Below are positions 50,096-55,700 of a DNA stretch of 57,071 bases, one piece after another. The notes under the pieces were generated by a model, which made no database searches, was not told the origin of the DNA, and saw only the letters and a program-made list of their open reading frames with translations. Both the position numbers and the translations under genes were made by a program. Position 1 is the first letter of the stretch. Every line of letters starts with the position of its first letter. This stretch comes from an uncultured Desulfobulbaceae bacterium (GTDB taxonomy: Bacteria; Desulfobacterota; Desulfobulbia; Desulfobulbales; CALZHT01): NCBI GenBank assembly GCA_945787445.1, contig CALZHT010000028.1:1-57071 (forward strand). The letters run 5' to 3'.

Positions 50096-50289
50096 GGATA
50101 CAGCCCTTATGAAAAGCAGGTATTCTATAAAGGGAATTTGCAGTTGGAAGAAAGTGTTACTTCATTTGAATTCAGCTTGGCAGCCGTTGTCAAGGAAATG
50201 TCAGAATAAAAAGATACTTTGTTCTATTAAACAGTGCACGGTTACTACCTTTCATGTACTTCCAACAAGTATTGGGATGGCTAAGCACA

Positions 50290-50450
50290 AAAGTTCGATA
50301 TACGCCCAACGGAAGTGCCCTTGGGGTGCAAGGCGTGACGGTGTCGAGGAAGCGGAGACATACATACGGTATGGTTAAGCATTCCGAAAACCCGCTACAA
50401 CGCGGGAGATTGGGTTTATGCCCTTTGGGTGCTTTTTGCGACGCCATCAC
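50290..50450. repeat. Intergenic palindromic repeat (approximate limits)
   Basis: The region contains GCCCTTGGGGTGCAAGGCG and a later GCCCTTTGGGTGC, with GTCGAGGAAGCGGAGACATA and CGCTACAACGCGGG between, a pattern of widespread Desulfobacterota/Gammaproteobacteria intergenic elements and similar to the interior of the element at 9341-9464. No reading frame is convincing. It occupies the middle of the 487-bp gap 50096-50582; the flanks show nothing. Confidence 0.45.
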
Positions 50451-50582
50451 CTTTTATGGTTTACCTGGGGTTTTTCTCTCAATACAATCTAATCAGCTTA
50501 GTGTCTTGTCAAGAATCAATAATGAAATGATCCCAACCTGTTCCGGCACGCTGTCATTGGAGAGCGCCAAAGGAGGAAAGCC

Positions 50583-51233
50583 ATGAGTCTCACAGAAGAA
50601 TTAACCAGACTGAAAGAGCAGTTTAGCGGGCAAGCACCGGCTGAAACCCTGAAAACCATGGCCGATGCCATAGAACGGTTGGCAAAAACCGGCATTGTTG
50701 AACGCAGCCTGAAGAGGGGCGACAAGGCACCGGACTTTACCCTGCCCAATGTTTCAGGCAATATGGTTTCCTCTTCTGCTCTCCTTAGAGCAGGACCAAT
50801 AGTATTGAGCTTCTATCGGGGAGTCTGGTGACCTTACTGCAATTTAAAGCTGCGGGCATTGCAGCTCAGGCTTCCTGAAATTCAAGCCTTGGCAGGCCAA
50901 CTGGTGGCAATATCACCCCAACTTCCCGACAATTCCTTGTCCACAGCCGAAAAACTGGATCTAACCTTTGAGGTGCTAAGTGATGAAGGCAACAAGGTGG
51001 CGCGAAAATTCGGCCTGGTCTATACCCTGGAGGAAGACCTCAAAACACTTTATGACCGGTTCGGCGTTGACCTTGAAGCATCGAACGGAGACAAGAGCTA
51101 CGAATTGCCGCTGCCGGCAACCTATGTTATCGGCACAGACCATGTGATCAGACATGCTTTTGTTGATGCAGATTATACAAAAAGGCTGGATCCGGATGAA
51201 ATCATAGCGGCCTTAAAGGAGATAAGGGGCTGA
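50583..51233 (+). CDS. AhpC/TSA-like thiol oxidoreductase, selenoprotein with in-frame UGA
   Basis: 216 residues if the TGA at 50829-50831 is read as selenocysteine 83. The text before it ends SFYRGVW and continues in the same frame with PYCNLKLRALQLRLPEI. Homologues have W-C-P-Y-C here, so UGA replaces the peroxidatic Cys of a CxxC pair (now U-x-x-C). Sequence on both sides is conserved peroxiredoxin-like (KAPDFTLPNVSG, VAISPQLPDNSLST, LPLPATYVI). A stem-loop lies 19 bases after UGA. A strong ribosome-binding site (AAAGGAGG) precedes the ATG. Normal gene finders would split this into two ORFs. Confidence 0.88.
50848..50866 (+). promoter_or_regulatory. Bacterial SECIS-like hairpin
   Basis: AGCTGC, loop GGGCATT, GCAGCT: a perfect 6-bp stem with a G-rich 7-nt loop, beginning 19 nt after the UGA (50829). 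Bacterial SECIS elements are expected at about this distance, inside the coding region, with a G in the apical loop for SelB. Confidence 0.65.
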
Positions 51234-51294
51234 AATTCTCGGCCGATATATTCGAGAGCATTGCTTGACGGATTCGAAAAAATCTTTTTTTCTA

Positions 51295-51375
51295 CCACAG
51301 AAGTCCCAGAGAGCACAGAGCAAAACCTTATTTTTTTTCAAATAGTTACCTCTGTGCTCTCTGTGTTCTCGGTGG
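51295..51375. repeat. Palindromic CACAGAG element
   Basis: AGAGAGCACAGAG (left arm, to 51320) and CTCTGTGCTCTCT (right arm, from 51350) are inverted repeats, extended outward imperfectly to CCAC and GGTGG. It fills most of the 292-bp gap between the selenoprotein gene and the convergent DsrC-like gene and could act as a terminator for both. Confidence 0.65.
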
Positions 51376-51525
51376 TGATTTCATTATTTATATGATTTGA
51401 ATACAAAAAAACTCCACTGATGTGAATCAGCAGAGCTCGCACAACTGCTTTTTAATATAAAGGCGCTCTTACCTGCAAAGTGAGCCAAAAGCACCATTAG
51501 TTGAGGACAATCTCTTTTAAACTGT

Positions 51526-51882
51526 TCAGCAGCATTCTTCCAGCATATATCGTTTGCCGTCAACACTGACGAAATGAATGCCTTCTAGCTTGGGGAGACC
51601 GGCAATCTTCCATGCCTTTTCCGGATTAATGAATTCTTCATTCACACAGCCTTTAGCTTGGTGGGTATGCTTACAGACATAATCCAAAATAGGGAATGCA
51701 TTGAATTTCCTGTAGTATTCCCGCATGAACTTTACGATCTCCAGTTTTTCATCCGAAAGGTCCTCAATCCCTTCATTGAATGCCAGATCTTGGGCAACCT
51801 CTTCGTCCCAGTCTTCAAGATTCATCAGAAAACCCTGATCATCAAGTTTGACTGTTTTGCCAGGATGTCTAATTTCCGTCAT
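51526..51882 (-). CDS. DsrC/TusE-family sulfur-relay paralogue with shifted cysteines
   Basis: 118 residues from the ATG at 51882, with GGAGGTGA six bases upstream; a GTG three codons earlier is less likely. The body is DsrC/TusE-like (LDDQGFLMNLEDWDEEVAQDLA, REYYRKFNAFP). The C-terminal arm, however, reads EKAWKIAGLPKLEGIHF: both redox Cys of true DsrC (GACK and TGCV) are replaced by Trp and Ile. Other Cys occur in YVCKHTHQAKGCV and at a terminal CC pair after a further 15 residues. It may relay sulfur or sense thiols differently from DsrC. Confidence 0.75.
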   Translation of the reverse strand: MTEIRHPGKTVKLDDQGFLMNLEDWDEEVAQDLAFNEGIEDLSDEKLEIVKFMREYYRKFNAFPILDYVCKHTHQAKGCVNEEFINPEKAWKIAGLPKLEGIHFVSVDGKRYMLEECC

Positions 51883-52192
51883 TAAAATCACCTCCTCATC
51901 GCAAATTTGCTTTTATGAACTTCTTTCTTACAAAAATATCTCTCACACAACGGCTTATCAGGCTGTTGCTGATTCCCGTTGGATTAAATGCTCTCTATAC
52001 TGACTAAATAATAAGGATGAAAAGAGGCGAAGTCAAAGGCATAAAACCAAGTCTGCAGGGTGTAGACGCCTAAAATAATTGCTACTTTGCAGAGAAGGTT
52101 TCATTAGGGTGCAAACTGGTCATAGCAAGATCTTTTTTTTACATCACAGTACTGTCTTCGCTAAAGCTATAATACTCAATAGTCCATAACAG

Positions 52193-53431: not shown

Positions 53432-53704
53432 ATGGCAAATTTACAAATCAAAGGTATTGACGATAGCCTTTACTCCCAGCTCAAAGAACTTGCGGCGGCA
53501 GAAAACAGATCAATCAGCCAGGAAGTCCTCTTTTTGGTGAAGAGCTATCTGGCCCATAAAAAGAGCATCCTATCAGCTAAAACTCCAGCCCAGGTTTTGC
53601 TTAATCTTGCCGGTTCATGGGAAGATGAACGGTCCCCTGCCGATATCGTCAAGCAGATAAAAAGCGCGCGAAGAAATTCTGAAAAACTCTCGGAAGGTTT
53701 CTGA
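53432..53704 (+). CDS. FitA/VapB-type ribbon-helix-helix antitoxin
   Basis: 90 residues with an N-terminal ribbon-helix-helix (NLQIKGIDDSLYSQLKELAAAENRSISQEVLFLV) and a disordered toxin-binding tail (SWEDERSPADIVKQI). An AAGGAGG site precedes the ATG. Its stop TGA overlaps the toxin ATG as TGATG, ensuring coupled synthesis. It belongs to the FitAB-type vapBC subgroup. Confidence 0.82.
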   Translation: MANLQIKGIDDSLYSQLKELAAAENRSISQEVLFLVKSYLAHKKSILSAKTPAQVLLNLAGSWEDERSPADIVKQIKSARRNSEKLSEGF

Positions 53705-54099
53705 TGTATCTCCTTGATACCGAAACCATTATATACAGTCTGAAAGGCGCCAAGGCTGTTCAGAAAAAATTGCGCGTTCATTTGCACGATCCGCTGAAAA
53801 TCAGCGTAATTACGCTGATGGAGCTTTATTATGGAGCATATAAATCCCAACAAGTTACCGGGAATCTGGCAAAAATAAAGGCCCTCGAAAGTTCTTTTGA
53901 TTTGGTACCCCCTGGTCCGGAGGTTGTGGAAATAGTCGGTATGCTCAAGGCAAAACTTGAAATGGAAGGCAATAGGCTGGACGACTTTGATTTAATAATT
54001 GCCGCAACTGCCCTCACTCATAATCTTGTCCTGGTCACTAACAATGTGAAACACTTTCAGAGAGTACCTGGACTCAATGTAACCAACTGGTGCAAATAA
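53704..54099 (+). CDS. FitB/VapC-type PIN-domain toxin
   Basis: 131 residues. PIN-domain acidic residues are Asp5 (MYLLDTE), Glu in LMELYYG, Asp in LDDFDLIIAA and the Asn/His pair in VTNNVKHFQRVPGL, typical of this VapC subgroup. It is an Mg-dependent ribonuclease neutralised by the upstream antitoxin. The pair appears intact. Confidence 0.85.
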   Translation: MYLLDTETIIYSLKGAKAVQKKLRVHLHDPLKISVITLMELYYGAYKSQQVTGNLAKIKALESSFDLVPPGPEVVEIVGMLKAKLEMEGNRLDDFDLIIAATALTHNLVLVTNNVKHFQRVPGLNVTNWCK

Positions 54100-54427: not shown

Positions 54428-54679
54428 ATGAAAACATTGACTTACAGCGCTGCCAGGGAAAAACTGGCTGCGACCATAAAAAAGGTCTGTGATGATCATG
54501 AACCGGTCATTATTACACGGAAACGTGAAAACGCTGTGGTTATGATCTCCCTGGAAGACTATAAATCTCTTGAGGAAACAGCTTATTTACTGCGCAGTCC
54601 AAAAAGTGCCAAAAGATTACTCGAGTCTATAGCTGAGCTTGAACAAGGAGGCGGTAAGGAACGGGAGCTGGCTGAATGA
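54428..54679 (+). CDS. yefM: YefM/Phd-type antitoxin
   Basis: 83 residues, Phd/YefM fold (KTLTYSAAREKLAATIKKVCDDHEPVIITRKRENAVVMISLEDYKSLEETAYLLRS). GGGGGA precedes the ATG. Its stop overlaps the toxin start (ATGA). It neutralises the adjacent YoeB and, with it, represses the operon through the palindrome upstream. Confidence 0.9.
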   Translation: MKTLTYSAAREKLAATIKKVCDDHEPVIITRKRENAVVMISLEDYKSLEETAYLLRSPKSAKRLLESIAELEQGGGKERELAE

Positions 54680-54930
54680 AGATAGTTTTTTCAGCCAATG
54701 CATGGGAGGATTATCTCTATTGGCAGCAAACAGATAAAAAAATGCTCAGAAGGATCAATAAACTCATAAATGAAATTCGCCGCTCCCCTTTTAAAGGGAT
54801 TGGCAAACCCGAACCTCTCAGGCATGGGCTTTCCGGTTACTGGTCACGACGCATTAACGACGAACACAGAATTGTTTACAAGGTTGCAGCAGATGCACTG
54901 TTAATTGCCCAATTGCGTTATCATTACTAA
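54676..54930 (+). CDS. yoeB: YoeB/Txe-type mRNA interferase toxin
   Basis: 84 residues, full length for YoeB. Conserved residues include WEDYLYWQQTDKK near the start, RSPFKGIGKPEPLRHGLSGYWSRRINDEHRIVYKV (with the catalytic Glu, Arg and His region), and the C-terminal LRYHY. It cleaves mRNA at the ribosomal A site. The pair is complete and probably active. Confidence 0.9.
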   Translation: MKIVFSANAWEDYLYWQQTDKKMLRRINKLINEIRRSPFKGIGKPEPLRHGLSGYWSRRINDEHRIVYKVAADALLIAQLRYHY

Positions 54931-55329: not shown

Positions 55330-55700
55330 AACTGCCCCTCATACACTTATTAAGTTAACTCCGTCCCGTGCTCTCGCCAGTACATCCCTTCGCCTCACGG
55401 CGACGGTAGCACAAGGGCATAACATGAGACCTCCCCGGGTAATGCGCACCCACCTTCATGCTTATGCCCGCCGCATTTACGTCCATGCTTTCCGTACAGG
55501 TATCGGACTTTAAAGATAATTGCCTTCTCATCCAGCATGACCGCCTCATATGCGATTTCTGTTCGTCGGGCCAGCGCTTTGCTTACAGCTTCCTTCAGCC
55601 AATACCTCGCGATAGTGACCTTGCCGTTCAGCTAACACTTCCCCCTGTCGGGTGTGTAGAGGACTTTCACCTCCAAGTGGGTGCGCCCTGCCGGGCGCAC
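55330..55700 (-). mobile_element. Truncated group II intron RNA (5' part only)
   Basis: Reading the minus strand from 55700: GTGCGCCCGG, then GGAGGTGAAAGTCC, and further down ACCCGGGGAGGTCTCATG, which are conserved features of bacterial group II intron domain I. No reverse-transcriptase ORF or domain V/VI follows, so the intron is cut short. The right boundary is precise and the left is approximate. Short ORFs across it are artefacts. It accounts for most of the 517-bp gap 55250-55766. Confidence 0.6.

Follow-up and report, generated by a model that had tools for sequence, protein, structure and literature searches.

Positions 50583 to 51233 of the analyzed stretch of DNA (57,071 nucleotides from an uncultured Desulfobulbaceae bacterium, hereafter the window) hold two conventional open reading frames, 50583-50831 (82 aa) and 50859-51233 (TTG start, 124 aa), and raise the question whether a broken gene or a complete one is present. 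The ATG at 50583, the TGA at 50829-50831 and the final TGA at 51231-51233 were all in one frame, and the first TGA was its sole interruption. These coordinates were verified in the sequence and agree with the initial annotation, which had described two same-frame open reading frames split by a TGA only. When the first TGA was read as a residue (U83), the product was 216 residues long and contained the stretch F-Y-R-G-V-W-U-P-Y-C, so that the U-x-x-C redox motif expected by the initial annotation was indeed found, as U-P-Y-C. The gene with the apparent premature stop is almost certainly an intact gene for a selenium-containing redox protein. The complete reading, an intact UGA-decoded selenoprotein of the peroxiredoxin (Prx) fold with a thioredoxin-like UxxC motif, including selenocysteine (Sec) insertion and the chemistry proposed below, is in our judgment highly probable. 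The locus illustrates clearly how standard annotation would divide an intact gene in two or label it as a pseudogene. Its features are as follows.

50572-50577, plus strand: Shine-Dalgarno sequence AGGAGG, 5 nt upstream of the ATG, read from the sequence.
50583-51233, plus strand: coding sequence of the predicted Prx-like selenoprotein, 216 residues, UGA-83 as Sec and the final TGA as stop; assigned from PF00578, TGA-spanning homologues and purifying selection.
50829-50831, plus strand: predicted Sec codon UGA-83, first position of U-P-Y-C, opposite Cys or TGA in homologues.
50838-50840, plus strand: codon of Cys86, which is proposed to be the resolving residue and falls on the Prx peroxidatic Cys in structure alignments.
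50848-50866, plus strand: bacterial SECIS hairpin AGCUGC[GGGCAUU]GCAGCU, within the bSECIS constraints, paired in 19 of 19 members of its own group and poorly in Cys forms.

Homologues with selenocysteine or cysteine at the UGA

The protein alignment of homologues ran on through both sides of the UGA. The site was W-[U/C] in 90 homologues, with TGA at this codon in 64 and Cys (TGT or TGC) in 26. The Cys homologues formed one unbroken chain across the site, and their Cys stood opposite the UGA. The TGA therefore occupies the first Cys position of W-C-P-Y-C, as had been claimed, and the alignment with Cys homologues that had been suggested as a check gave the expected result. In a whole-genome search, the five relatives that were found first all had TGA at this codon. 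Matches were obtained in 38 of 257 genomes at the class level and in 29 of 395 at the phylum level, in both searches with TGA at the same codon in nearly all. Most TGA homologues were in genomes of the window's own phylum, where Cys was rare. In a contig scan, Candidatus Binatia, Desulfotignum and Deltaproteobacteria MAGs had TGA at the site. Bacteroidota, Paenibacillus, Verrucomicrobiota, gamma- and zetaproteobacterial MAGs and, at 60% identity, a Symploca MAG had Cys instead, in most cases as WCPYC or WCPFC.

In every pair tested, nonsynonymous change was much lower than synonymous change both upstream and downstream of the UGA, and this codon comparison indicates purifying selection on the two flanking segments. 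On an 87-row tree the Sec/Cys label required seven state changes; the backbone was weak, and a single origin of Sec is therefore still compatible with the tree. The Sec and Cys homologues, together with the three SECIS positions described below, constitute a useful set for studying the origin of Cys-to-Sec switches and the placement of a SECIS inside constrained coding sequence.

The SECIS hairpin and the proposed decoding of the UGA

The stem AGCUGC (50848-50853) / GCAGCU (50861-50866) encloses the loop GGGCAUU (50854-50860). The stem begins 19 nt downstream of the U of the UGA, and with 6 bp in the stem the gap from UGA to loop is 22 nt; when an extra G-U pair is included, the hairpin has 7 bp, a 5-nt loop (GGCAU), a spacing of 23 nt and an energy of -8.8 kcal/mol. 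The bSECIS model specifies a loop of 3-9 nt, a stem of 4-16 bp, G in the first two loop positions, a distance of 16-37 nt from the UGA and an energy of ≤ -7.5 (PMC13188914), and the hairpin at 50848-50866 satisfied all of these constraints. Both the perfect, SECIS-like 6-bp stem with a G-rich loop 19 nt after the TGA and the outcome hoped for from a bSECIS-type prediction were thereby confirmed. An equally stable SECIS-like hairpin followed 34 of the 2,208 TGA triplets in the window (1.5%) and equal stability was reached by 2.5% of synonymous recodings, so that the hairpin by itself is modest to weak evidence. When 47 nt were folded in isolation, an alternative of similar energy was preferred to it, and its stability did not exceed that of shuffles. 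As the hairpin alone was no proof in that setting, a comparative test was used.

The median energy of the best SECIS-like hairpin was -7.5 kcal/mol in Sec forms versus 0.0 kcal/mol in Cys forms (Mann-Whitney p ∼2e-13, which is only nominal because the set includes near relatives). The hairpin was found at three alternative positions, with the loop 16, 19-20 or 22-23 nt after the UGA. Counted from the UGA, positions 18-23 paired with 29-34 in all members of the group that includes the window (n=19), positions 16-19 with 25-28 in all members of a second group (n=35) and positions 12-16 with 21-25 in all members of a third (n=6); the groups were defined by hairpin position, and the full pairing within them is thus partly by construction. 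G was present in the first two loop positions of nearly all sequences of the three groups, and Cys forms paired poorly at all three hairpin positions. Since the paired bases were near-invariant inside each group, the support consists of presence versus absence of the hairpin and not of covariation.

The genome to which the window belongs (4.46 Mb, 227 contigs, 95.6% complete) contained all four genes whose presence had been proposed as a check, selA, selB, selC and selD. The tRNA-Sec scored 71.5 bits and had the anticodon TCA (UCA), SelB was above its cut-off, and SelA and SelD scored 638 and 340 bits. The SelD frame had its own in-frame UGA at the active site (RTCGUAAK); the genome therefore also has a UGA-encoded site in a classical selenoprotein. 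Among 41 carriers of the UGA gene that were tested, selB was above the cut-off in 35. Among the remaining six, selA was present in five and tRNA-Sec exceeded its cut-off in four, and the missing selB genes are for this reason likely to be gaps in fragmented assemblies. In the sixth genome (G160, 72% complete) selB, selA and tRNA-Sec were all missing from the assembly. According to the proposed mechanism, SelB with Sec-tRNA(UCA) would bind the hairpin just 3' of UGA-83 and the ribosome would put Sec at this codon with no termination.

Three other readings of the UGA were weighed against Sec insertion. A pseudogene created by a recent nonsense mutation, or a TGC or TGT miscalled as TGA, might be suspected in a window from a fragmented draft assembly of 227 contigs. 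However, the identical TGA was present at the identical codon in dozens of genomes, selection was purifying downstream of it and the hairpin was confined to TGA forms. The recurrence in dozens of separately assembled genomes excludes a sequencing error, and we regard this reading as extremely improbable. Neither a genome devoid of Sec machinery nor a TGA miscall, the two circumstances named beforehand as speaking against a selenoprotein, applies here. A suppressor or reassigned tRNA that decodes UGA as Cys or Trp would agree with the Cys of the homologues, but it would leave the SECIS hairpin without a role in a genome where tRNA-Sec (UCA) and SelA/B/D are present. Reassignment was rejected because UGA is the ordinary stop of four other genes in the window and of the selenoprotein gene itself; we consider it very improbable. 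The UGA could also be a real stop followed by a restart, giving two separate proteins, and an open reading frame from TTG 50859 does exist. This start is not preceded by a Shine-Dalgarno sequence, the split would strip the active-site motif from both halves, and the Cys homologues are single chains, which leaves next to no probability for two proteins. Sec insertion at UGA-83 is thus the reading that we adopt.

Predicted fold, active site and related selenoprotein families

The product matched Pfam AhpC-TSA (PF00578) with 101 bits against a cut-off of 26. PF13911 did not match at E 0.001, the motif being UxxC and not UxxS, and no NCBIfam model reached its curated cut-off (SelL-related NF040769, 30.9 vs 120 bits; PrxU NF040737, 25.8 vs 270 bits). 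An AlphaFold model, for which 24 family members were used, had a mean pLDDT of 96 and a pTM of 0.92. It matched Bcp/PrxQ and AhpE structures with Z 20-22 over ∼150 residues, with Z 21.7 to 3hjp (157 residues, rmsd 1.8). Residues 1-41, mostly two helices, were outside the matched domain. In the alignment to 2cx3 and 5epf, Cys86 corresponded to the peroxidatic Cys, Sec83 to Ser/Thr and Arg79 to the Pro of PxxxTxxC. The alignment to the thioredoxin-family protein 3hdc placed U-P-Y-C over C-P-Y-C. We therefore view the protein as a Prx fold that carries a thioredoxin-like active site. The description of the protein as peroxiredoxin-like therefore stands for the fold, as modeled; the protein is not a canonical peroxiredoxin, because Sec is at the Prx Thr position and Cys86 at the peroxidatic position.

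The product is probably cytoplasmic. By analogy with thioredoxin-fold enzymes, Sec83, which directly precedes the active-site helix, would be the attacking selenolate, Cys86 would resolve the intermediate as a Se-S bond, and this bond would then be reduced by a cellular thiol reductant. The most likely role is that of a thiol:disulfide oxidoreductase or a thiol-dependent reductase in redox-stress defence. A true peroxidase would instead be a 2-Cys-like peroxiredoxin in which Cys86 is peroxidatic and Sec83 resolving. The Prx fold and the alignment of Cys86 with the peroxidatic Cys of PrxQ/Bcp structures favor such an enzyme, whereas the thioredoxin-like layout does not. The canonical PxxxT/SxxC site was absent, the sequence being R-G-V-W-U-P-Y-C. 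With Arg79 in place of the Pro and Sec83 in place of the Thr, the protein lacks the canonical peroxide-activating site. We therefore consider a peroxidase unlikely, and prefer the reductase or oxidoreductase with an attacking Sec83.

Selenoproteins of this kind were already known. Prx-like UxxC selenoproteins of PF00578 were predicted with high confidence (PMC13188914). The Prx-like thiol:disulfide oxidoreductase (PF00578, UxxC; reference WP_010940744.1) is listed in PMC13188914, PMC9312934 and PMC1794560, and Prx-like UxxC selenoproteins had been listed for Desulfotalea, Geobacter and Syntrophus by 2006 (PMC1794560). Others were described in Sargasso Sea (PMC1088965) and GOS data (PMC2398784), the latter with 225 Sec and 2,740 Cys members of Prx-like 1 (pfam00578, UxxC). 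We place the window protein among the Prx-like thiol:disulfide oxidoreductase selenoproteins already described, a family predicted ∼20 years ago. The AhpC-TSA domain, the UxxC motif, a SECIS after the UGA and the bacterial group are common to both and no difference was found, the likeness being drawn from these features. The GOS Prx-like 1 set, likened by its description, has the same domain and motif and differs in being a marine metagenome set. The selenocysteine peroxiredoxin (PF00578, TxxU) shares the fold and the Pfam family, but has Sec at the peroxidatic position and Thr three residues before it, whereas the window protein carries Sec in place of this Thr and Cys in the peroxidatic position. 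The peroxiredoxin-like/AhpC-TSA family protein of cd02970/pfam13911 (PMC13188914, PMC9312934) shares the Prx-like fold and Sec at the first motif position, and differs by its UxxS motif and by PF13911, which was unmatched here.

Genomic context

The window copy had no evident operon partner, its neighbors being a TPR-methyltransferase gene, a dispersed repeat and a DsrC-like gene, and across relatives no conserved operon partner pointed to a substrate or reductant. In several Sec and Cys loci of relatives a TetR-family gene adjoined the homologue, in most cases upstream of it and in divergent orientation, and five loci had an old-yellow-enzyme gene nearby. These neighbors hint at an electrophile or redox-stress role, which we take as a lead. 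Because several relatives adjoin a TetR regulator and an old-yellow-enzyme gene, we tentatively suggest, as a possibility rather than a probability, that the family is an unrecognized electrophile-stress selenoenzyme. Equally tentatively, the three hairpin positions may mean that the SECIS slid within this short run of codons or was built anew each time that Cys changed to Sec independently.

Two further PF00578-type genes with a UGA were observed in the same genome. The first (L107, G000:C43:41155-41658, minus strand) is a paralogue with 34% identity; its N-terminus resembles a signal peptide, its motif is W-U-H-Y-C, and it has a relative (L158) in another genome of the phylum. The other (L175, G000:C85:7103-7438), the third PF00578 gene, has one in-frame UGA, is secreted and ResA/TlpA-like with the motif H-W-U-K-K-C, and lies ∼2.6 kb from selD.

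Upstream of the selenoprotein gene, positions 50263-50450 of the window form a dispersed repeat with recurring modules, to which the genome contains 33 complete or partial matches with identities of up to 92%. Directly downstream, at 51294-51376, there is a 27-nt imperfect inverted repeat (ACCACAGA...CTCTGTG type), which may be a terminator or a small mobile element. The DsrC-like protein, with a Cys-Cys end, is encoded at 51526-51891 on the minus strand, convergent with the selenoprotein gene. The only Rfam match in the window was a group-II-D1D4-3 intron at 55445-55616 on the minus strand (135.7 bits). Two neighboring toxin-antitoxin pairs, an RHH antitoxin with a PIN toxin and Phd/YefM with YoeB, were located at 53432-54099 and 54428-54930, respectively.
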